From Thermodesulfobacterium hydrogeniphilum (lineage in GTDB: Bacteria; Desulfobacterota; Thermodesulfobacteria; Thermodesulfobacteriales; Thermodesulfobacteriaceae): DNA of 64,000 nucleotides. Shown piece by piece: positions 10,793 to 22,973 of the stretch. The number at the start of each line of letters is the position of its first letter. Positions within the stretch are counted from its first letter, which is position 1. The translations under genes and the position numbers were made by a program. The notes beneath the pieces were generated by a model, which was not told where the DNA came from, did no database searches, and saw nothing but the letters and a program-made list of their open reading frames with translations. Where the stretch lies: the NCBI RefSeq assembly GCF_000746255.1, contig NZ_JQKW01000001.1, forward strand, positions 1 to 64,000. Reading direction: 5' to 3'.

Positions 10793-10835
10793 TCTTTAAT
10801 TTGAAATAGGACTGGTTTAAATAATGGGAGGATTT

Positions 10836-12092
10836 ATGGAAGAGAAAATAGATTGGGGAACAAAAGAAAAGGTTATAGCAGACATTAACAGTTGGAAGGG
10901 GAGGTTTATTGATATAAGAGAGTTAACTCCATCTCATGATGGAGAAAAAATTGCTGCTATAGTTCAACCTGAGACTCGTAAATTTACTTTATGTATAAAT
11001 GGGAAATTACAAGAGAACCTGTTTGATAGGATGTATTCACTTAGATTTAATTTAGAAAATCAGCCTATCTGTCTTGTTTATGCTGACTTTCAATGGACTG
11101 TTCTTGTTGGGGATACAATGTGGGAAAACGGTTTTGATATGATGTGGAATCTTACTTTAAGTCCAGATACTAAAAGTATAGCTGTTAATATAAGAACTGC
11201 TGAGATGACAAGTGGAGTATGTTTAAATGATGTTCCTTGGGAAAACACTTTTTTTGAAGCAAGTGATGTAGTTATCAGTCCAGATGGCAAGAGAACAGCT
11301 TCACATGTTCAGATCAGACAAAGAGAAGAGCTTAATATACACTGGTTTTACCAGAAAAATTTTACTGTAGCTGTAGATGGAAAAGCTTGGGATAATTCTT
11401 TTTTAACGACCTGGGGTGCTACATTTAGTAGTGATAGTCAACATGTAGCTTCAGTTGTTATGACAAGTGATGCAGCTACTTATAGTATTGCAGTAGATGG
11501 TATTCCTTGGGATAAAGAATTTAGTGGATGCTGGGAACCTATTTTTGTCCCAGGAACTTTAGATGTTATAGCACCTGTTGAAACTCCCCGAGGTTGGACT
11601 TTGGCAGAGAATGGAGCTATTATATGGCCTTATTTTCACCAGGTTTATTCTCCTAAGGTGAGTCCTGATGGTAAAAGATTAGCAGCTATAGTAGTGCCAG
11701 AGGTTGGTAAATGGACAGTAGCTATAGATGGTAAGCCCTGGAAAAATATTTTTAACCAAATGATTTTTAATCCAATTTTTAGTCCTGATGGTAGTAAAGT
11801 AGCTACTATCGCTAAACATAATAATAAATATTTAGTAGTAGTAGATGATAAAGTCTGGCCGGATTCTTTTGAAAATGCTTGGGATCCTGTTTTTTCACCT
11901 CAGGGTGACAAGGTAGCACTTAGAGCTGAAAAGAAGGGTAAATTTTTTATTGTGGCGAATGGAAAAATTGGTAAAACAGCTTATGAATGGTTATGGGATC
12001 CCATTTTTAGTCCCGATGGTTCTAAAATTCTTATAAGAGGAATAGAAAACGGTAAATATGTTAGAAGAGTGCTTTCTATTGATGAAATATAA
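10836..12092 (+). CDS. tmcD: Tryptophan-rich beta-propeller protein, TmcD-like
   Basis: The protein has 418 residues and about 19 tryptophans. It is built of roughly nine repeats of about 45 residues, with F/VSPDGxKxAxxV strands alternating with VDGxxWxxxF turns. This is a PD40/WD40-like beta-propeller. No signal peptide or membrane segment is seen, so it should be cytoplasmic. The best fit is TmcD, the tryptophan-rich cytoplasmic subunit reported for the Desulfovibrio Tmc complex; this rests on repeat character and operon place, not on an alignment. The start is ATG 10836 because GGGAGG precedes it; an ATG at 10824 overlaps that site and has none of its own. It leads the hmc operon and probably binds HmcF or a redox partner. 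Confidence 0.65.
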   Translation: MEEKIDWGTKEKVIADINSWKGRFIDIRELTPSHDGEKIAAIVQPETRKFTLCINGKLQENLFDRMYSLRFNLENQPICLVYADFQWTVLVGDTMWENGFDMMWNLTLSPDTKSIAVNIRTAEMTSGVCLNDVPWENTFFEASDVVISPDGKRTASHVQIRQREELNIHWFYQKNFTVAVDGKAWDNSFLTTWGATFSSDSQHVASVVMTSDAATYSIAVDGIPWDKEFSGCWEPIFVPGTLDVIAPVETPRGWTLAENGAIIWPYFHQVYSPKVSPDGKRLAAIVVPEVGKWTVAIDGKPWKNIFNQMIFNPIFSPDGSKVATIAKHNNKYLVVVDDKVWPDSFENAWDPVFSPQGDKVALRAEKKGKFFIVANGKIGKTAYEWLWDPIFSPDGSKILIRGIENGKYVRRVLSIDEI

Positions 12093-12113: not shown

Positions 12114-12785
12114 ATGGGTTTTTTAGAGAGTGTAGCATTTTATAATTTTTTAAGAGGCCCTATGGTATGGTTAACTTTTATTATTTTTATTTTAGGAAGC
12201 ATATATAAAATCTTTTATCTAATTAAGCTGGGTAAAGAAGAAAGAGTTATCTTTCCTTTTTTGAGTATGAAAGCTACTATTAAATCTGTTTTGCACTGGT
12301 TAATACCTTACGGTTCAAGAAACTGGAGATTAAGACCCTTTTTTACTATTTTAACATCTCTTTTTCATATATGTTTAATATTTACTCCTATTTTCCTTTT
12401 GGGTCATAATCTTTTATTATATGAATCTTGGGGAATTTCCTGGTGGACCTTACCTGAAGCTTTAGCGGATATAATGAGTATTGTAGTAATAGTAGGGTCT
12501 GTTTTATTCTTTTTAAGAAGAATTTTTAGTCCTACAGCGAGATTTGTCACTACTTTATCTGATTATATTTTTATTGGTATATGTTTTTTTACTTTTCTTA
12601 CAGGATTTTTAGCTCATCATCAATTACTTCTTTCTTATAGAGCTATGTTAAATTTACATATAATATTTGGTGAGATTATGTTAATATGTATTCCTTTTAC
12701 CAGACTTGTTCATATGTATTATTTCTTCTTGACAAGAGCTTGGATGGGTTCTCAATTTGCATGGTGGAAAACTAAAGATTGGTAA
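12114..12785 (+). CDS. hmcE: HmcE-like membrane cytochrome b (NarI family)
   Basis: The 223-residue protein has five hydrophobic helices (near residues 15-35, 75-98, 115-135, 148-168 and 182-205). Histidines suited to bind b haems are FHICLIF, GHNLLLYESWGISWW, AHHQLLL, NLHIIFGE and RLVHMYY. The family is the NarI/DsrM-type quinone-interacting subunit. Length matches HmcE (about 225 residues in Desulfovibrio) and TmcC. In the complex it would move electrons between the periplasmic cytochrome module or menaquinone and cytoplasmic HmcF, encoded just downstream. The C-terminus ends on the cytoplasmic side with WMGSQFAWWK. Confidence 0.85.
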   Translation: MGFLESVAFYNFLRGPMVWLTFIIFILGSIYKIFYLIKLGKEERVIFPFLSMKATIKSVLHWLIPYGSRNWRLRPFFTILTSLFHICLIFTPIFLLGHNLLLYESWGISWWTLPEALADIMSIVVIVGSVLFFLRRIFSPTARFVTTLSDYIFIGICFFTFLTGFLAHHQLLLSYRAMLNLHIIFGEIMLICIPFTRLVHMYYFFLTRAWMGSQFAWWKTKDW

Positions 12786-12806
12786 AATAAAAAGGGGGAT
12801 TTGAAT

Positions 12807-14231
12807 ATGAATGAGTTTGCTATTGAAAGATATTTGAATAGGATAATAGAGGAAAGGGAACAGGGAGAAAAAGAGAAATATGTTAGTCCTTATTTTCCAG
12901 AATATGTAAGAGAAGTAGTTCCTGACATGGGACTTGATGAGAGGGTTTCCCAATTAACCACTGAACAAATAGAAAGAGTAATTAAAAGAGTAATAGGAAA
13001 ACAGACAGCTAGGTTAAAATCAATTATAGAGACTTGTATGCATTGTGGTCTTTGTTCAGATGCATGTCAGTGGTACATTTCCAATGATAGGGATCCAACT
13101 TACGCACCTGTAGCTAAAATTAGGATGACTCTTGGAGAAATGATAAAGAGAAATTTCAAGGTAGATCCTGAGTTTATAAAATTTTGTGCAAGAGTGGTTT
13201 TTACTGAATGTAATATATGTCATCGTTGTAGTATGTATTGTCCTTTTGGTTTAGATATTACTGCAATTATTAGATTGGTAAGAAGAATTTGTTTTATTTT
13301 GGGTGTAGTTCCTCAACGTCAACTTGACCAAGCTCAGACTCATATAACATTTTTGAACCAGGTATGGTTATCGCAAAATGATTATTTAGATACACTTTTC
13401 TGGCGTGAAGAAGAAGGTATTTATGAATTAAAAAATCTTAGAATACCTATAGATAAAGAAGGAGCAGAAATTCTATGGTTTCCGTTAGGAGCAGAGCCTA
13501 AAACAGGTGTTGATCACATTGATAGATTTGCCAAAATAATGGCTGTAGCAGGTGTTGATTGGACTATGACTTCTAAGGATACTTGGGATAGTAGTAACAT
13601 GTCCATGTTTATTAATGATTATTTTACTATGGAAAGAATTGTAAGAGGTCTTTATGAAAATGCTAAACGATTGCGAGTTAAACGAATAGTTTTAACGGAA
13701 TGAGGGCATCCAAGGTACGCCACAAGTTATGTGGCGGCGCAGTTATTAGGATTTAAAAATTTACCTTTTGAAGTTTTGCAACCAGCAGAATTTTATTATG
13801 AACTTTTAGTAACAGGGAGACTAAAAATTGATCCAGCTAAAAGAATTAAAGAACCTGTTACTGTGCAAGATCCTTGTAATGTTATTAGAAGAGCTGGAGC
13901 AGCAGAAAAGCTTAGATATGTTATAAAAGCAGCTTGTGAGGATTTTAGAGATATGTATCCTAATAGAGAACATAACTTCTGTTGTAATTCAGGAGGGGGA
14001 CTTGCAGCTTTATCTAATTGGAGTGCACATAAAGGAAGAGGTAATAGAGTAAAAGCTGAACAAATTTTAAGAACAGGAGCTAAAATAGTAATAACTCCTT
14101 GTCATAATTGTCATACTGGAATTAAAGATGTAATAAATTATTGGAAATTACCTGTAAAAACTATGTATTTAGATCAGTTATTAGTAAGCACTATGGTAAT
14201 TCCAGAAGAGTTAAAACCTGAAGAAGGATAA
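12807..14231 (+). CDS. hmcF: HmcF, HdrD-like iron-sulfur subunit with predicted selenocysteine (U299)
   Basis: The frame runs 474 residues if the TGA at 13701-13703 is read as selenocysteine. The N-terminal half has two ferredoxin-type clusters, CMHCGLCSDACQW near residue 75 and CNICHRCSMYCPFG near 133. The C-terminal half has a CCG domain with DPCNVIRR, NFCCNSGGG and CHNC, the site of the noncubane [4Fe-4S] cluster in HdrB/HdrD. The TGA replaces the cysteine of ECGH in the paralogue at 21606-22973, and alignment continues on both sides without gaps. A SECIS-like hairpin follows. A ribosome site AGGGGG precedes ATG 12807; TTG 12801 is less likely. The alternative, a nonsense mutation splitting the gene (with re-start at GTG 13731), is disfavoured. 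The role is cytoplasmic electron output toward sulfate reduction. Confidence 0.85.
13080..13193 (+). repeat. 114-bp tract identical to the hmcF paralogue
   Basis: This tract is identical base for base, third codon positions included, to 21852-21965. Flanking sequence in the two genes diverges, apart from another near-identical run just upstream (from about 13028). It encodes the linker between the two ferredoxin-type clusters. Such local identity between otherwise diverged paralogues indicates recent gene conversion. Confidence 0.8.
13718..13736 (+). promoter_or_regulatory. Predicted bacterial SECIS hairpin in hmcF
   Basis: CGCCACA (13718-13724) pairs perfectly with TGTGGCG (13730-13736) around the loop AGTTA. 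The loop begins 22 nt after the last base of the in-frame TGA (13701-13703) and has G at its second position. Published bacterial SECIS rules call for a hairpin 16-37 nt after UGA with a G in the first two loop positions. The stretch is markedly GC-rich compared with the AT-rich gene around it, and the paralogue lacks any hairpin here. Confidence 0.8.
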
Positions 14232-14242
14232 GGAGTAAAATT

Positions 14243-15913
14243 ATGAAAAAAGAGACATGGTTTTTACTATTATTAGGTACTGTTTTGTATCTTATTGTTA
14301 TAATTTATGGAATAAAACAAGTTTATACTGCACCTATTCCGCCTTCTAAAAAAGTAGAAGTTGTTAAGTCTGGAAATAAAATAGCAATAGCTCATAGTGA
14401 AATATTTGGGGTGTTACAAAGACCACCGGTTATTTTTGATCATCAAAAACATGTAGAAGTAATTGAAAAAGAAGGAAAAAAAGAATGGGATACTTGTAAG
14501 ACCTGTCATAGAGTAAAAAGAGATAAAAAAGATAAAAAAGAATTTTTAGTTTTTGATTTTCCTAAGGAGATTAGTAAAAAAGATTATAAAGGTTATATGA
14601 ATGCTTATCATAAGGAATGTATAGGATGTCATAAACAAAGAATGAAAGAGAATAAGAAGACAGGACCTGTTACCTGTGGTGATTGTCATAAAGAAAATGT
14701 TAATATAGCTAAATTTAAATATCCTGTTATGGAATTTGATTTTAAACTTCATGATGAGCATGAAAAGAAACTTAAAGATAGAACCAAAAATAAAACTGTA
14801 AAAGAAACTTGTAAATTATGCCATCATACTTATGATTTAAAAACAAAAAAATTGGTATACCAAAATGGAACAGAAGAATCTTGTTATTATTGTCATGATT
14901 TAACTGTCAAAAAGAGAGGTCCTGAACTTTCAAAGATCTTAAAAATAACTTCTAAAGAAAATGATAATATTAAGAAAGTTTCTCATATTAGATGTCTTAA
15001 CTGTCATCTTGAGATTAAGAAAGAAATAGCTCTTTCTAAGGTTAAGGCAGAAAAAGTTCCACCTATAAAATGTGTAAAATGTCACACTGGAAAATATAGA
15101 AGTATTGAAGATCTCAAAAATATTCCTCGTCCTGATAGAGGACAGAAGGATATTATATTTATAAATGTCAAAAATGCTAAAATGAAAGGAGTTCCTTTTG
15201 ATCATAAGGCGCATGAATATGCTCATAAAACCTGTCGTGAGTGCCATCATGAACGATTAAAACCTTGTAAAGATTGTCATACTCTTAAAGGCAGTCCTAA
15301 AGGAGATTATATTAATTTAGCTGAGGCTTATCATTCTATATTTTCTGATTATAGTTGTGTAGGTTGTCATAATAGGAAGATAGCTCAAAATAAAGACTGT
15401 ATGGGATGTCATATTTTTATACCTGCTATGGATGTTGCTGCCAAGACCCCTGATAAAGAGATGTGTGCTAAATGTCATACAGGTAAAAAGCAGGTGGTAT
15501 TACCATCTTTAATTTCTACTGCTAAGCTTGATCCAAAGGTGGTAAAATCTGATATAGAAATAAAAGTTCTTGAAAAAGATTTTAAGCCTGCAAAATTTCC
15601 TCATCGTAAAATTATAGATGATTTAGTAAAAGTGTCTAATAATGACAAATTAAGCAGATATTTTCATGGAAATCTACAAACTGTATGTAGAGGTTGTCAT
15701 CATCAAAGTAAAAAGGAGGCAGAAGTAGGTAATTATAAACTACCTGCTTGTATTAATTGTCATTCTATAGGGTTTGATCCTTTGAATCCTACAAAGCCTA
15801 AATTGATGGCTGCTTATCATCAGCAGTGTATAGGTTGTCATGATGCTATGAAATTAAAAAAACCTACAAGAAGATGCACAGATTGTCATGCTAAAAAAGA
15901 AAAAAATAAATAA
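14243..15913 (+). CDS. hmcA: HmcA, 16-haem high-molecular-weight cytochrome c
   Basis: The 556-residue protein contains exactly sixteen CxxCH haem-binding motifs, the number known for HmcA, and matches its size (about 545 residues). Many extra histidines, such as FDHQKHVEV, PFDHKAHEYAH and FPHRK, are suited as distal ligands. An N-terminal hydrophobic segment (about residues 5-25) with charged MKKE before it is a signal or membrane anchor, placing the cytochrome in the periplasm. It would accept electrons from hydrogenase-reduced cytochrome c3 and pass them to the membrane subunits. The ribosome site AAGGAG lies 12 nt downstream of the hmcF end. Confidence 0.97.
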   Translation: MKKETWFLLLLGTVLYLIVIIYGIKQVYTAPIPPSKKVEVVKSGNKIAIAHSEIFGVLQRPPVIFDHQKHVEVIEKEGKKEWDTCKTCHRVKRDKKDKKEFLVFDFPKEISKKDYKGYMNAYHKECIGCHKQRMKENKKTGPVTCGDCHKENVNIAKFKYPVMEFDFKLHDEHEKKLKDRTKNKTVKETCKLCHHTYDLKTKKLVYQNGTEESCYYCHDLTVKKRGPELSKILKITSKENDNIKKVSHIRCLNCHLEIKKEIALSKVKAEKVPPIKCVKCHTGKYRSIEDLKNIPRPDRGQKDIIFINVKNAKMKGVPFDHKAHEYAHKTCRECHHERLKPCKDCHTLKGSPKGDYINLAEAYHSIFSDYSCVGCHNRKIAQNKDCMGCHIFIPAMDVAAKTPDKEMCAKCHTGKKQVVLPSLISTAKLDPKVVKSDIEIKVLEKDFKPAKFPHRKIIDDLVKVSNNDKLSRYFHGNLQTVCRGCHHQSKKEAEVGNYKLPACINCHSIGFDPLNPTKPKLMAAYHQQCIGCHDAMKLKKPTRRCTDCHAKKEKNK

Positions 15914-16054: not shown

Positions 16055-17086
16055 ATGAAATTTAATAGAAGAGATTTTTTGAAAAAAACAGGGATACTCG
16101 CAGGAGCTCTTCTTACAGGTACTCCTGCAGTTTCTCAAGCATATAAAAAGGATAAAAAAGATGTAGATCTTTCTATTTATTCTACTGATAATAAAGCCAA
16201 TTCAAAAGTCTGGGAAATATATGAAGAAAGGAAAAAAAAACATATACCACCTCCCAAGGAACCTTATGGAGTGTTAGTAGATGTATCCAAGTGTATAGGA
16301 TGTAGAAGATGTGAGTGGGCTTGTAATAATTGGAATAAAAATCCTAATAGACCTATAGAGGAATTTGAAGCTTCTGTATCTCAAGAACCTTCAGTATTTG
16401 ATAAAAGAAGAAGACCTCATGCAGGACAATTTACTGTAGTTAATAGATTTAAGACTAAAAGTGGCAAAACTGTATATGTTAAAATTCAATGTATGCATTG
16501 TGTTACTCCTGCATGTTATGCTGCTTGTTTTGTAGAAGCTTTTAGAAAGACACCAGAAGGTCCGGTTATTTATAATCCTCATGTATGTATAGGATGTCGT
16601 TATTGCATGGTAGCTTGTCCTTTTGATATTCCATCTTATGAGTATTATGATCCTTTAACTCCGGAAGTTACTAAATGCACTATGTGTTACGATAGAATTG
16701 TAGAGGGAAAGGTACCAGCTTGCGTAGAAGCTTGCACTGCTGGAGCTTTAACTTTTGGTAAAAGGAGTGAGCTTATAAAAATAGCTAAAGAAAGAATTGC
16801 CAATAATCCTGGTAAATATGTTAATCATATATATGGAGAAAAGGAAGTAGGTGGTACAAGCTGGTTATATATATCACCTGTTCCTTTTGAAGAAATAGGT
16901 TTTAGAACAGATTTAGGAGAAGTTCCAATTCGTCAATATAGTGATCAATTTTTATTTATGGTAAAAATGTTTGAAATAGTAGGAGCTTGGCCTTTAGTTT
17001 TTGGAGCTTATTATCAACTTTCTAAACATAAGAAAGGACACAATTCTACAAATGAAGAGAAAGGAGAAAGCCATGGAAAGAAATAA
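16055..17086 (+). CDS. hmcB: HmcB, Tat-exported four-cluster ferredoxin subunit
   Basis: The 343-residue protein starts with a twin-arginine signal, RRDFLKK followed by a hydrophobic stretch. Cysteine sets for four [4Fe-4S] clusters follow: CIGCRRCEWACNNW near residue 80, CMHCVTPACYAAC near 148, CIGCRYCMVACPFD near 178 and CTMCYDR...CVEACTAGA near 208. A C-terminal hydrophobic segment (about 300-320) anchors it, as in Desulfovibrio HmcB (370 residues). It should link HmcA on the periplasmic face to the NrfD-like HmcC. It overlaps hmcC by 14 nt, with start and stop in different frames. Confidence 0.93.
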   Translation: MKFNRRDFLKKTGILAGALLTGTPAVSQAYKKDKKDVDLSIYSTDNKANSKVWEIYEERKKKHIPPPKEPYGVLVDVSKCIGCRRCEWACNNWNKNPNRPIEEFEASVSQEPSVFDKRRRPHAGQFTVVNRFKTKSGKTVYVKIQCMHCVTPACYAACFVEAFRKTPEGPVIYNPHVCIGCRYCMVACPFDIPSYEYYDPLTPEVTKCTMCYDRIVEGKVPACVEACTAGALTFGKRSELIKIAKERIANNPGKYVNHIYGEKEVGGTSWLYISPVPFEEIGFRTDLGEVPIRQYSDQFLFMVKMFEIVGAWPLVFGAYYQLSKHKKGHNSTNEEKGESHGKK

Positions 17087-18290
17087 GAATTCTTCTTGGT
17101 TTAGAGAAAAAATTCTTATGGGAAAGACTTTTGGAGAGTATATTAGAGATTGTTTAACTCCTTGGAATATAATAGCTTTGATATTTTTGATTTTAGGAAT
17201 TTATGCGATGATTTATAGATTGGTAGCAGGGTTTGGCCCTACTACCAATCTTTCTGATGAATATCCATGGGGTTTTTGGATTGCTTTTGATATTTTAGTA
17301 GGTATTGCTTTAGCAGCTCCAGGTCTTACTATTGGGACAGCTGTTCATTTGTTTGGTTTAAAAGATTATCATCATTTTGCCAGACCTGCTATTTTGTCAA
17401 GTTTGGTTGGATATATTTTTGCAGTATTTGCTCTTTTATTTGACCTTGGTAGGTATTATCGTGTATTTTATTTAATTGGTTGGTCTTGGGGTTTTAGTTC
17501 TATTCTATTCCTAATTGGTTGGCATTTCTTTCTTTATATTAACATTTCTATAATTGAATTTGCTCCTGTAGTATGTGAATGGTTAAATTTAAAAAGAGCA
17601 AGGGAATTTTTTAATAAACTTGCTATTTGGGCTACTATTTTTGGAGTAATAATTGCTGGAGGTCACCAGTCTGCACTTGGTGGTTTATTCTTGGTAGTTC
17701 CTTCAAAATTACATCCACTTTGGTATTCAGCTTTATTACCTCCATTTTTCTTACTTTCAGCAATTTGTGCAGGAATATCTGTAGTCATTTTTGAAAGTAG
17801 TATTACTCATAGAGCATATAAACACTTAATCAAAGACTATGATCCTGTAGATTTTGATGCTAAAATAATAGGATTAGGAAAGGCTGTTGCATATGGGCTT
17901 TATATTTATTTAATTTTAAAACTTCTTGATTTTGCTCATTATGAAAAATGGCATTATTTAAAAGGTTTTTATGGTTTCTGGTATTTATTTGAAGTAATTG
18001 GCTTTTTCCTTATACCTGCCCTTATTTTGACTTATGCTGTAAGATATAAACAAGCTTTTTGGGTCAGAATCAGTGCTGTTTTAGTTATGTTAGGAATTTT
18101 ACTGAATCGTTTTAATGTGTGCTTATTAGCTTATAAATGGTATTTACCTGCTTCTCAGAAATATTATCCAGCCTGGACAGAGGTTGCTTTAAGTGCAGGT
18201 GTTATTACCATGTTAATTTTAGTTTATAGATTTATTCTTAATCGTATGCCTGTGCTTTATGAACATCCAGAATTTAAATCTGAACATTAA
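17073..18290 (+). CDS. hmcC: HmcC, NrfD-like membrane subunit
   Basis: The 405-residue protein has about ten membrane helices and belongs to the NrfD/PsrC group of quinone-interacting anchors. Conserved features are EYPWGFWIAFDILVGIALAAPG in the second helix region, LFDLGRYYRVF and GGHQSALGGLFLV. The start is ATG 17073, which follows AAGGAG and overlaps the end of hmcB; an in-frame ATG 72 nt upstream has no ribosome site. HmcC has no cofactor of its own in known complexes and probably handles menaquinone. It is the last gene of the operon; only 6 nt separate it from the convergent PiT gene and no clear terminator was found. Confidence 0.92.
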   Translation: MERNKNSSWFREKILMGKTFGEYIRDCLTPWNIIALIFLILGIYAMIYRLVAGFGPTTNLSDEYPWGFWIAFDILVGIALAAPGLTIGTAVHLFGLKDYHHFARPAILSSLVGYIFAVFALLFDLGRYYRVFYLIGWSWGFSSILFLIGWHFFLYINISIIEFAPVVCEWLNLKRAREFFNKLAIWATIFGVIIAGGHQSALGGLFLVVPSKLHPLWYSALLPPFFLLSAICAGISVVIFESSITHRAYKHLIKDYDPVDFDAKIIGLGKAVAYGLYIYLILKLLDFAHYEKWHYLKGFYGFWYLFEVIGFFLIPALILTYAVRYKQAFWVRISAVLVMLGILLNRFNVCLLAYKWYLPASQKYYPAWTEVALSAGVITMLILVYRFILNRMPVLYEHPEFKSEH

Positions 18291-18296
18291 AAATTA

Positions 18297-19235
18297 TTAA
18301 AAGATTAAGATCAATTTAGTAAAAAGAAAAGAAATTGTGAAGGCACTTAAAAGAGTAAGAAGCCAATTTATAGCAATTCTTTTAATAAGATTTAATTTAA
18401 TAGTTTGTAATCCTTTGGTTATACCAACACCACTAAGTGCACCTATAATACAATAAGTAGTAGAAACAGGCATACCAAATAATGTAAATAAAAATATACA
18501 AATACCAGCACTAAATTGGGCTATAAAACCAGAGAAAGGATCAAGAGGAATAATCCCTTTTCCTACGGTTTCTATAACTCTATAACTCATAGTTATTGCA
18601 CCTAAGAAGATAAAAAAAGAAGCTAAAAAATAAAGAAGTATTATATTTATAGGAATTTTTATATAAACAATAGGACCAAGCACTGTGGCTAATTCATTAG
18701 CTCCGGTGTTATAAGAAATAAGAGAAGCACTTAAAAGAAGAAAAGACCTTAGAAGTTTTTCAACTTCAAAAAAAGGAATTTTAGAGATCAATTTTTCTGC
18801 AAGAATATATAAAAAAAATCCCAATATACAAGCTATAAAAGGAGATATTATCCAAGAGATAAATATTTTAACTAAGGAAACAAAATTCACAGAATGATTC
18901 AAAGCAAATCCGGAGCCAATCAAACTCCCTATAATTACTTGATGAGTTGAAAGAGGCAATTTTTTCCAATTAGATAATAAAATCAAAAAAGAAGAAATTA
19001 TAAGAGCTAAACTAATTATAAAAGGACTTGCTTCTATTAAGTTTTTTCCTACAGTTTTCATTACTTTATCACCATTTAATAAGACACCAGTAAAAACAAG
19101 GATTCCAAAAAGAAAAACAGCTTTTTTAAATCTTATTATTCCAGCTCCAATAGAAATACCAAGAGCATTAGAAGCATCATTTGAACCTATTCCAAAGGCA
19201 ATAAGAAAGCTTGAAATTATGGCAAGTTTTATCAT
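18297..19235 (-). CDS. PiT-family inorganic phosphate transporter
   Basis: The 312-residue integral membrane protein has the two PiT repeats: IGSNDASNALGISIGAGI near the N-terminus and SYNTGANELATVLGPIVY near residue 172, with GMPVSTTYCIIGALSGVG near the C-terminus. This is the short form common in archaea and thermophiles. It imports phosphate using a cation gradient. It is the third gene of a minus-strand operon after a PhoU-like DUF47 protein (13-nt gap), the usual regulator partner of PiT carriers. Confidence 0.92.
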   Translation of the reverse strand: MIKLAIISSFLIAFGIGSNDASNALGISIGAGIIRFKKAVFLFGILVFTGVLLNGDKVMKTVGKNLIEASPFIISLALIISSFLILLSNWKKLPLSTHQVIIGSLIGSGFALNHSVNFVSLVKIFISWIISPFIACILGFFLYILAEKLISKIPFFEVEKLLRSFLLLSASLISYNTGANELATVLGPIVYIKIPINIILLYFLASFFIFLGAITMSYRVIETVGKGIIPLDPFSGFIAQFSAGICIFLFTLFGMPVSTTYCIIGALSGVGITKGLQTIKLNLIKRIAINWLLTLLSAFTISFLFTKLILIF

Positions 19236-19248
19236 AAGAACTAATTTT

Positions 19249-19890
19249 TTATTTTAAACTTAGATCAAGGATATAAAGATAATCACTTGCATCTTCAATA
19301 ATATCGCTTATACTTACTAATGAATCTACAAACTCTGCAATTGTTTTTCCTTCCCAAAAGTTAACCTGTTTAGCTAATTCTGAGTTTCTTAATTTCTCAC
19401 TAATATCCAATTTTATGTCATCTACCTTTTTTTCATAGATTCTAATAGCAAGTTTTTTTTCTCTGAGATTATCCTTTTTTGTTAAAGCTTCAAATCCCTT
19501 TATAAGAATTTGACACATTTCAACATTTATATCAGCTACCTTTATACATTCCTCTTTTATTTCTTTATAAATGTCAAGTTTAAAATATCTAAAATCAAAA
19601 GCGCAAAGATTAAGATAATTAAAAGCTTTTTCAGTAATTTCTATAAAAGCACAAAGGTTAGGTCTAATATAAGGTAAAAAAGCTCCTTCATAAATCATAG
19701 ATATAATTTCTCTTTTTAAATAATCTGCTTCTCTTTCAAGATTTTCTACACAATAAGTTTCCTCTATATATTCTTTTGTAAGAACTTCCTTTAAACATTG
19801 AGTAGCTGAACAAAGAGTGTTTAAGTAATCTTTAATTTTTTCAAGAACTTTTTTTTCTAATTTTCCACTACCCCAAAATTTTTCTAACAT
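19249..19890 (-). CDS. PhoU-like DUF47 protein
   Basis: The 213-residue protein is wholly helical in appearance with no membrane segment. It has repeated acidic patterns such as ENLEREADYLKREI and ISDIIEDASDYLYIL that fit metal-binding PhoU-type bundles. DUF47 (TIGR00153) genes are nearly always next to PiT carriers, as here, and are thought to control them. The ribosome site GAGGT lies upstream of ATG 19890. Confidence 0.88.
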   Translation of the reverse strand: MLEKFWGSGKLEKKVLEKIKDYLNTLCSATQCLKEVLTKEYIEETYCVENLEREADYLKREIISMIYEGAFLPYIRPNLCAFIEITEKAFNYLNLCAFDFRYFKLDIYKEIKEECIKVADINVEMCQILIKGFEALTKKDNLREKKLAIRIYEKKVDDIKLDISEKLRNSELAKQVNFWEGKTIAEFVDSLVSISDIIEDASDYLYILDLSLK

Positions 19891-19904
19891 ATTCTTACCT
19901 CATT

Positions 19905-20306
19905 TTATTTTTTAGCTTTTTCAATTAGAATTTCAGCCAAAATATCAAAAAAAGAGACCAAACCTATAATTTCATTATTTTCATTTTTAACAAAAACTCT
20001 GGCTATATTGTTTTTTAACATCAAATTTAATATCTCTTCTATATTTGTATCCTTAGAAACAGCTATAATAGGTTTAGAAGCTATATTTCCTATTTTAATC
20101 TTAACAGGGTCTAATTTTTGAGCTAACACTTTAAATATTATATTTCTTACGGTAACTACTCCATAATCATCTTTTGAGTCTTTGGGTAAAACTAAAAGAG
20201 AACGAATTCTTTTATCTATTAATCTCTCTATAGCATCATAAACTGTAGCATCAGATGAAATGGTTTCTAATTTTGTATTCATGATCTCACTTACTTTCTT
20301 TTCCAT
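19905..20306 (-). CDS. Two-CBS-domain protein in phosphate operon
   Basis: The 133-residue protein consists of a CBS pair: VSEIMNTKLETISSDATVYDAIERLIDKRIRSLLVLP, then KPIIAVSKDTNIEEILNLMLKNNIARVFV with EIIGLVSFFDIL. CBS pairs bind adenine nucleotides or related ligands. As first gene of the CBS-DUF47-PiT operon it may report adenylate state to phosphate uptake; this is an inference. A strong AAAGGAGG site precedes ATG 20306. Confidence 0.88.
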   Translation of the reverse strand: MEKKVSEIMNTKLETISSDATVYDAIERLIDKRIRSLLVLPKDSKDDYGVVTVRNIIFKVLAQKLDPVKIKIGNIASKPIIAVSKDTNIEEILNLMLKNNIARVFVKNENNEIIGLVSFFDILAEILIEKAKK

Positions 20307-21577: not shown

Positions 21578-21605
21578 TTATCAAAAAATGCAGGAGGAGG
21601 AAAAA

Positions 21606-22973
21606 ATGGAAAAAACTTTGGGTAATAAATCAGAAATAGCTGAAGAGAAATATGTAAGTCCTTATTTTCCTGAATATGTAAGAACTCGTATAGATGATCC
21701 TGGATTAGATGAAAAGATTAAAGGACTTACTTCTGAAAAAATAGAAATGGTAATAAAATCAGTAATAGGAAATTCTTCTGCGAAGATAAAAGCTGCTATA
21801 GAGACTTGTATGCATTGTGGTCTTTGTTCAGATGCATGTCATCATTATTTATCCAATGATAGGGATCCAACTTACGCACCTGTAGCTAAAATTAGGATGA
21901 CTCTTGGAGAAATGATAAAGAGAAATTTCAAGGTAGATCCTGAGTTTATAAAATTTTGTGCAAGAATAGTTTTTACTGAATGTAATGCTTGTCACCGTTG
22001 CAGTATGTATTGTCCTTTTGGAATTGATATAGCAGCTTTAATAGGAAAAGTCAGAAGGATATGCTTTTTACTCGGAATAGTTCCCTATATTTTAATGGAT
22101 ACAGCTCAAAGCCTTGCTACAACCCTTACCCAGCTCTGGATTTCTCAAGCAGATTGGATTGATACTGCTCAATGGATGGAAGAAGAACTAAGTGCAGAGA
22201 TTAAAGAAGCTTACATTCCTATTAATAAAGAAGGGGTTGATGTGTTGTATATTCCTTTAGGAACAGAACCTAAATTAGTGCCTCAGTATATAGCAGTTAT
22301 GGCTAAAATTATGTCTTATGCAGGAGTTAATTGGTCCTATTCTTTACATGATTATGCTCAAGCAAGTATGTTTGTCCAGGATTTAATTACTATGCAAAGA
22401 ATTGCTAAAGAAATTTTTGAAGAAGCTAAAAAATTAAGACCTAAAAAGATGGTAGCTACAGAATGCGGACATGCACTTTATGGCACTTTTATAATGGCTC
22501 CTCCACTTTTAGGTTATAAAAACCTACCTTTTGAGGTATTACATGCTGTGGAATTTTATTATGAACTTGTAAAAACAGGGAGATTAAAGATCGTTAGAAA
22601 GATCAAAGAGCCTGTTACTGTACATGAACCTTGCAATTTGGTAAGAAGAAAGGGTGCTGGAGATAAATTGAGATATCTTGTTAAAGAAATGTGTGAGGAT
22701 TTCAGAGAAATGTATCCTAGTGATGGACACAATTTCTGTTGCAATGCTGGAGGATCAGTAATTGCATGTGGGCCTCCTTGGAAAAAAGCAAGGGTTAAAA
22801 ATGCAAGAGTAAAAGCAGAACAAATTAAAAATACAGGTGCTAAAATAATTATTGCTCCCTGTCATAACTGCCATACTCAAATACATGATTTGATAAAAGC
22901 TTACAATATTGATGCTGAGGTTAAATTTATGTGGGATATATTGTTTGAAACTATAGAAACTCCTTTTGTTTAA
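21606..22973 (+). CDS. HmcF/DsrK-like iron-sulfur protein, cysteine form
   Basis: The 455-residue protein has the same plan as the operon HmcF: ferredoxin motifs CMHCGLCSDACHH and CNACHRCSMYCPFG, then a CCG domain with HEPCNLVRR, NFCCNAGG and CHNC. At residue 287 it has cysteine (TGC 22464-22466, in ECGHA) where the operon copy has TGA. It is monocistronic with a strong promoter. The start ATG 21606 follows GGAGGAGG; the ATG at 21588 lies upstream of that site. It may replace the selenocysteine subunit in the Hmc complex when selenium is short, or serve another membrane partner such as a Qmo/Dsr-like module. Both are inference. Confidence 0.88.
   Translation: MEKTLGNKSEIAEEKYVSPYFPEYVRTRIDDPGLDEKIKGLTSEKIEMVIKSVIGNSSAKIKAAIETCMHCGLCSDACHHYLSNDRDPTYAPVAKIRMTLGEMIKRNFKVDPEFIKFCARIVFTECNACHRCSMYCPFGIDIAALIGKVRRICFLLGIVPYILMDTAQSLATTLTQLWISQADWIDTAQWMEEELSAEIKEAYIPINKEGVDVLYIPLGTEPKLVPQYIAVMAKIMSYAGVNWSYSLHDYAQASMFVQDLITMQRIAKEIFEEAKKLRPKKMVATECGHALYGTFIMAPPLLGYKNLPFEVLHAVEFYYELVKTGRLKIVRKIKEPVTVHEPCNLVRRKGAGDKLRYLVKEMCEDFREMYPSDGHNFCCNAGGSVIACGPPWKKARVKNARVKAEQIKNTGAKIIIAPCHNCHTQIHDLIKAYNIDAEVKFMWDILFETIETPFV
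21852..21965 (+). repeat. 114-bp tract identical to operon hmcF
   Basis: This is the second copy of the tract at 13080-13193, identical at every base. The genes diverge on both sides, which points to gene conversion rather than uniform conservation. Confidence 0.8.

Follow-up and report, generated by a model that had tools for sequence, protein, structure and literature searches.

Selenocysteine (Sec) has precedent among the Fe-S oxidoreductases of anaerobic bacteria. A family carrying the motif UGH was recorded from Syntrophobacter, Desulfotalea and D. vulgaris under the name 'GlpC' (Zhang et al. 2006, PMC1794560), is also listed in PMC1914089, and is named 'Fe-S oxidoreductase-like protein, PTHR43551, motif UGH' in a 2026 review's list of confidently predicted selenoproteins (PMC13188914). 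A Sec-containing HdrD4 has been reported in D. autotrophicum (PMC2702500). The gene analyzed here encodes TEUGH in a Fer4_8/CCG Fe-S oxidoreductase and by this motif and type falls within the UGH family. Since that family has been listed since 2006 and a Sec HdrD4 has been reported, this kind of selenoprotein is already known; an earlier note on this DNA knew of no described Sec HmcF, but the family is listed in PMC13188914 and PMC1794560.

Compared by description, the likeness to the UGH family (PTHR43551, 'GlpC') lies in the motif, the type of Fe-S oxidoreductase and the occurrence in anaerobes (Desulfovibrio, Syntrophobacter and Desulfotalea among the reported hosts). The gene neighborhoods differ, with hdrA-frhD-frhG-frhA reported for Syntrophobacter and Desulfotalea, whereas the order here, in Thermodesulfobacterium and Nitrospirota, is tmcD-tmcC-tmcB-hmcA-hmcB-hmcC. 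In the open-access literature (most subscription papers lie outside this scope), we found no description of HmcF or TmcB as selenoproteins and no report of Thermodesulfobacterium or Nitrospirota as hosts of the UGH family. New in this analysis are the assignment to a subunit, the host groups and the finding that Sec occupies a lone Cys conserved through DsrK.

The in-frame UGA codon and its hairpin

The window (the whole 64,000-nt stretch analyzed) comes from the genome of Thermodesulfobacterium hydrogeniphilum, which is 1.69 Mb in 13 contigs and 100% complete. The tmcB/hmcF-like gene (12807-14231, plus strand) begins with an ATG at 12807, preceded by AAGGGGG, and extends to 14231; its sole internal in-frame stop is a TGA (13701-13703, plus strand) at codon 299 of 474, within the TEUGH motif. 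Reading the TGA as Sec gives a protein of 474 aa with the Pfam domains Fer4_8 and CCG. Residue 299 aligns with a Cys of a paralogue in the same window (TGC, 22464-22466), and both codons lie exactly where the earlier note had placed them, in one alignment column. Its claim that the two proteins align without gaps holds just past the codon and fails some 40 residues further on, at a 2-aa gap. The codon is TGA across the Sec-clade orthologues and TGC or TGT in 71 of 71 scored Cys homologues, the pattern of an in-frame UGA opposite Cys by which selenoproteins are recognized. Purifying selection acts on either side of the codon: both 5' and 3' of the TGA, dN lies well below dS wherever the latter could be estimated.

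Bacterial SECIS elements are hairpins just 3' of the UGA, with the apical loop ~16-37 nt away and a G within the first two loop bases. The hairpin at 13718-13736 (plus strand) has this placement: a 7-bp stem (CGCCACA/TGTGGCG) starts after a spacing of 14 nt, the loop (AGTTA) starts 22 nt past the TGA, and its second base is G, all of which bears out the perfect hairpin originally claimed. The segment is also GC-rich within an AT-rich gene, as had been noticed; GC content is 60% over the 42 nt that start with the TGA vs. 34% for the gene, and 0.15% of the 42-nt windows within the gene are equally GC-rich.

A fixed hairpin rule (stem of 6 bp or more) was applied alike to TGAs, resampled codons, and Cys and Sec homologues. 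Qualifying hairpins follow 4 of the 1823 TGA trinucleotides on both strands of the window and arise in 2.3% of synonymous-codon resamplings of the same peptide; among the 447 codon positions of the Sec gene, they occur solely at the Sec codon and two neighbors, which see the same hairpin. None of 71 Cys homologues has such a hairpin vs. five of six Sec homologues. Synonymous identity among eight orthologues is 92% in the hairpin window vs. 52% gene-wide, the highest of 442 windows. In an alignment of 14 Sec sequences, 97% of the cells are paired, with three pairs changed on both sides (covariation score 0.192 vs. 0.083 shuffled), and pairing falls to 19-59% once the register is slid. The folding energy of the region is not significant (z = -0.73) and was left out of the evidence, and a Rfam scan, from a library that may hold no bacterial SECIS family, returned chance matches only. 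The case for a SECIS element therefore rests on conservation and covariation.

The genome encodes a complete Sec machinery, so the search for selA, selB, selC and selD that the earlier note had proposed comes out in its favor: there is a tRNA-Sec (ARAGORN, anticodon tca), selB (393 bits; cut-off 242), selA (609 bits; cut-off 268) and selD (348 bits; cut-off 125). The selD gene (L199) has an in-frame TGA of its own, followed by a 10-bp hairpin with the loop at 20 nt; SelD is itself a predicted selenoprotein and serves as an internal positive control. With this machinery present, the TGA and hairpin kept in orthologues, and the hairpin missing from Cys homologues, a selenoprotein with an in-gene SECIS element is strongly supported, and we put the probability that the TGA at 13701 is decoded as Sec at about 0.95. 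SelB and Sec-tRNA would read UGA codon 299, steered by the hairpin 14 nt 3' of it, to give a full-length TmcB/HmcF-type subunit. Standard annotation, taking TGA as a stop, would cut such genes into two.

Orthologues, paralogues and other readings of the TGA

Comparison among related genomes, which the earlier note had suggested, reveals the expected exchange: TGA is kept in Thermodesulfobacterium and Nitrospirota orthologues, and Cys stands elsewhere. Full-length orthologues in three further Thermodesulfobacterium genomes (G010, G011 [a T. geofontis MAG] and G019; 68-71% identity) have one TGA each, and TGA-bearing orthologues are also found in Nitrospirota MAGs. All of these Sec orthologues have the hairpin in the same register, and its stem matches TGCCACA...TGTGGCA with minor deviations. 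HmcF-like proteins elsewhere in Desulfobacterota (L166-L169; identity 36-38%) carry UGH as well, each followed by a SECIS-like hairpin; those of L167-L169 are less perfect. We did not find selB in one related UGH-bearing genome (G139, 76% complete). Among the matches listed from 247 genomes of the taxonomic family of G103, most run without a stop and only a few have a TGA.

A second complete tmcD-tmcC-tmcB-hmcA-hmcB-hmcC operon lies on contig C8 of the same genome (G000, locus L049, 6346-13557). Its tmcB likewise encodes TEUGH (TGA at C8:27102); the hairpin shares the axis of the first one but has another stem sequence, GAGCCTC/GAGGCTC. An extra TGA in this homologue was considered as a second Sec codon and rejected, because it proved to terminate tmcC, the gene upstream.

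With the Sec column left out, trees require at least five Cys/Sec changes (45 rows) or at least six (55 rows), with the direction settled only for parts. One homologue (L189) combines a TGC codon with the hairpin of L088 and L190, its Sec sisters, suggesting that Sec gave way to Cys there recently. Loss of the Sec trait was rejected as the cause of Cys in other Thermodesulfobacterium, since those genomes keep selB. Because the nearest Cys relatives of the C8 copy belong to sister species in which selB is retained, Cys and Sec appear to be exchanged gene by gene.

The Cys paralogue in the window (21588-22973, plus strand; TGC at 22464) is solitary, with no complex genes of its own. It is intact in the window genome and in G010, broken by several stops in G019 (L057, G019:C5), and appears frameshifted in G011 (L056, G011:C84). 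Positions 13116-13175 of the Sec gene are 100% identical to the matching part of this paralogue over 60 nt, compared to ~88% in the flanking blocks and ~70% for the genes; the tract looks gene-conversion-like and is far from the Sec codon. Between the Sec operon and the paralogue, on the minus strand (18297-20306), are genes for Pit phosphate-transporter-like, PhoU-like and CBS-domain proteins, named from their translations.

The TGA could in principle be a genuine stop, so that the gene would be either a pseudogene in decay or the source of two separate proteins, one per half, with a restart at GTG 13731. Translation table 11 does yield two ORFs (12801-13703 and 13731-14231), an intact Cys paralogue lies nearby, and the fate of that paralogue in G019 and G011 indicates that decay occurs in the family. 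However, orthologues of two phyla share a single in-frame stop that is always TGA and always at the same codon, both halves are under purifying selection, the SECIS element is conserved alongside the full Sec machinery, and the break sits inside a conserved motif; we regard a genuine stop as very improbable. That TGC or TGT was miscalled as TGA during sequencing or assembly is scarcely conceivable, even though TGA is one base away from the Cys codons, as assemblies made independently, from the genus and from Nitrospirota, show the same TGA together with a hairpin that Cys homologues lack.

An in-frame TGA does not by itself name the residue, and near-cognate readthrough or an altered code could place Trp or Cys there. 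TGA nevertheless terminates 6 of 51 long open stretches in the window (one of them perhaps the Sec TGA itself), the alternative at this column is Cys and not Trp, and the complete Sec machinery and SECIS element point to Sec, leaving only a very slight chance that another amino acid is inserted.

A Tmc/Hmc hybrid operon

The Sec gene is the third of six genes on the plus strand. Upstream are a tmcD-family gene for a beta-propeller-like subunit (10824-12092; NF045725, 450.8 bits, above the cut-off of 440), which has the same place in the gene order of relatives, and a gene for a tmcC/hmcE-like, NarI-like membrane anchor (12114-12785; NF045723, 242.6 bits, above the cut-off of 240). Downstream are hmcA, encoding a 16-haem periplasmic cytochrome c (14243-15913; NF045713, 547 bits, above the cut-off of 400), an hmcB-like gene for a periplasmic Fe-S protein with a Tat signal (16055-17086; NF045715, 361 bits, below the cut-off of 420; TIGR01409), and an hmcC-like gene for an NrfD membrane subunit (17001-18290; NF045714, 418 bits, below the cut-off of 550). 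As listed, the hmcC-like ORF overlaps hmcB, and its true start is probably further downstream than 17001. No HmcD gene was seen in the operon. A multihaem c3-type cytochrome, a NarI-like anchor and a CCG Fe-S subunit encoded in one operon identify a Tmc/Hmc-type complex, and the order tmcD-tmcC-tmcB-hmcA-hmcB-hmcC recurs in many phyla, with Sec and with Cys.

The Sec protein scores 505.8 bits against the TmcB equivalog (NF045724, cut-off 735) and 362.6 bits against the HmcF equivalog (NF045711, cut-off 750), and is a relative rather than a member by either rule; the DsrK profile scores further off (NCBIfam). The name HmcF given in the earlier note is thus fair but loose, as the protein is nearer to TmcB (506 vs. 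363 bits) while staying below both cut-offs, and what had been taken for a plain Hmc operon is a Tmc/Hmc hybrid. Given the higher TmcB score and the mixed tmc/hmc neighbors, we prefer 'TmcB/HmcF-type subunit of a Tmc/Hmc hybrid complex'. The protein shares with TmcB and HmcF full-length homology, the Fer4 plus CCG layout and the neighbors TmcC, TmcD, HmcA, HmcB and HmcC; it differs in its scores, in having Sec for Cys and in its hybrid operon. The ECGH cysteine and most of the C-terminal CCG cysteines recur in DsrK of the DsrMKJOP complex, but identity is only ~30%, six of six DsrK checked have Cys, and the C-terminal PCHxC motif is without its last Cys there.

The membrane topology of the hybrid complex is presumably that known for the family. 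HmcA, HmcB and HmcC would lie on the periplasmic/membrane side, TmcC would form the membrane anchor, and TmcB and TmcD would be cytoplasmic, making the Sec subunit the probable arm through which a transmembrane complex exchanges electrons in the cytoplasm.

Position and possible role of residue 299

The C-terminal CCG domain of the Sec protein keeps five Cys (357, 392, 393, 432 and 435, numbered from ATG 12807), while the sole Cys/Sec left in the N-terminal CCG-like domain is that of (T/G)E(C/U)GH. This residue is invariant in 45 aligned homologues and is also found in DsrK. The earlier note had placed the Sec next to the CCG cluster domain; it lies instead within the degenerate N-terminal CCG domain and not in the intact, Pfam-recognized one. 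An AlphaFold model of the protein (pLDDT 92, pTM 0.90) has EtfD as its best structural match, with weaker matches to LutA and HdrB, and a PDB sequence search finds only EtfD and succinate dehydrogenase-type proteins. The fold is that of HdrB/HdrD and EtfD, and residue 299 falls on the first Cys of the EtfD CPHC (profile alignment, 9ojn); the difference is that the N-terminal CCG domain here has lost all Cys but one.

In HdrB, both CCG domains each hold a cluster. Residue 299 occupies the first ligand position (CxxC) of the degenerate N-terminal HdrB-like CCG domain; with one cluster per CCG domain in HdrB, this solitary residue plausibly points towards the one cluster left, the special Fe-S cluster held by the intact CCG domain at the C-terminus. 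There it may be a cluster ligand, or a selenolate exchanging with a thiol/disulfide (DsrC-like) partner. We hold a catalytic or cluster-facing role of residue 299 to be possible, at slightly less than even odds, and a change in redox or ligand chemistry due to Sec, as the earlier note proposed, to be plausible. Again at slightly less than even odds, Sec may mark a catalytic residue common to the whole DsrK/HmcF/TmcB group, a lone selenolate or thiolate that caps the CCG cluster or attacks a thiol/disulfide partner.

These results give an obscure selenoprotein family a place in a defined membrane complex and extend its range to Thermodesulfobacterium and Nitrospirota. Repeated natural exchange of Sec and Cys at one residue points to a chemically active residue, and makes it accessible to 77Se EPR, Se XAS and the comparison of matched Sec and Cys forms within a genus. 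If the catalytic residue is indeed shared across the group, the repeated Cys/Sec exchange would be a way in which evolution adjusts the redox exit of sulfate-respiration complexes on the cytoplasmic side.
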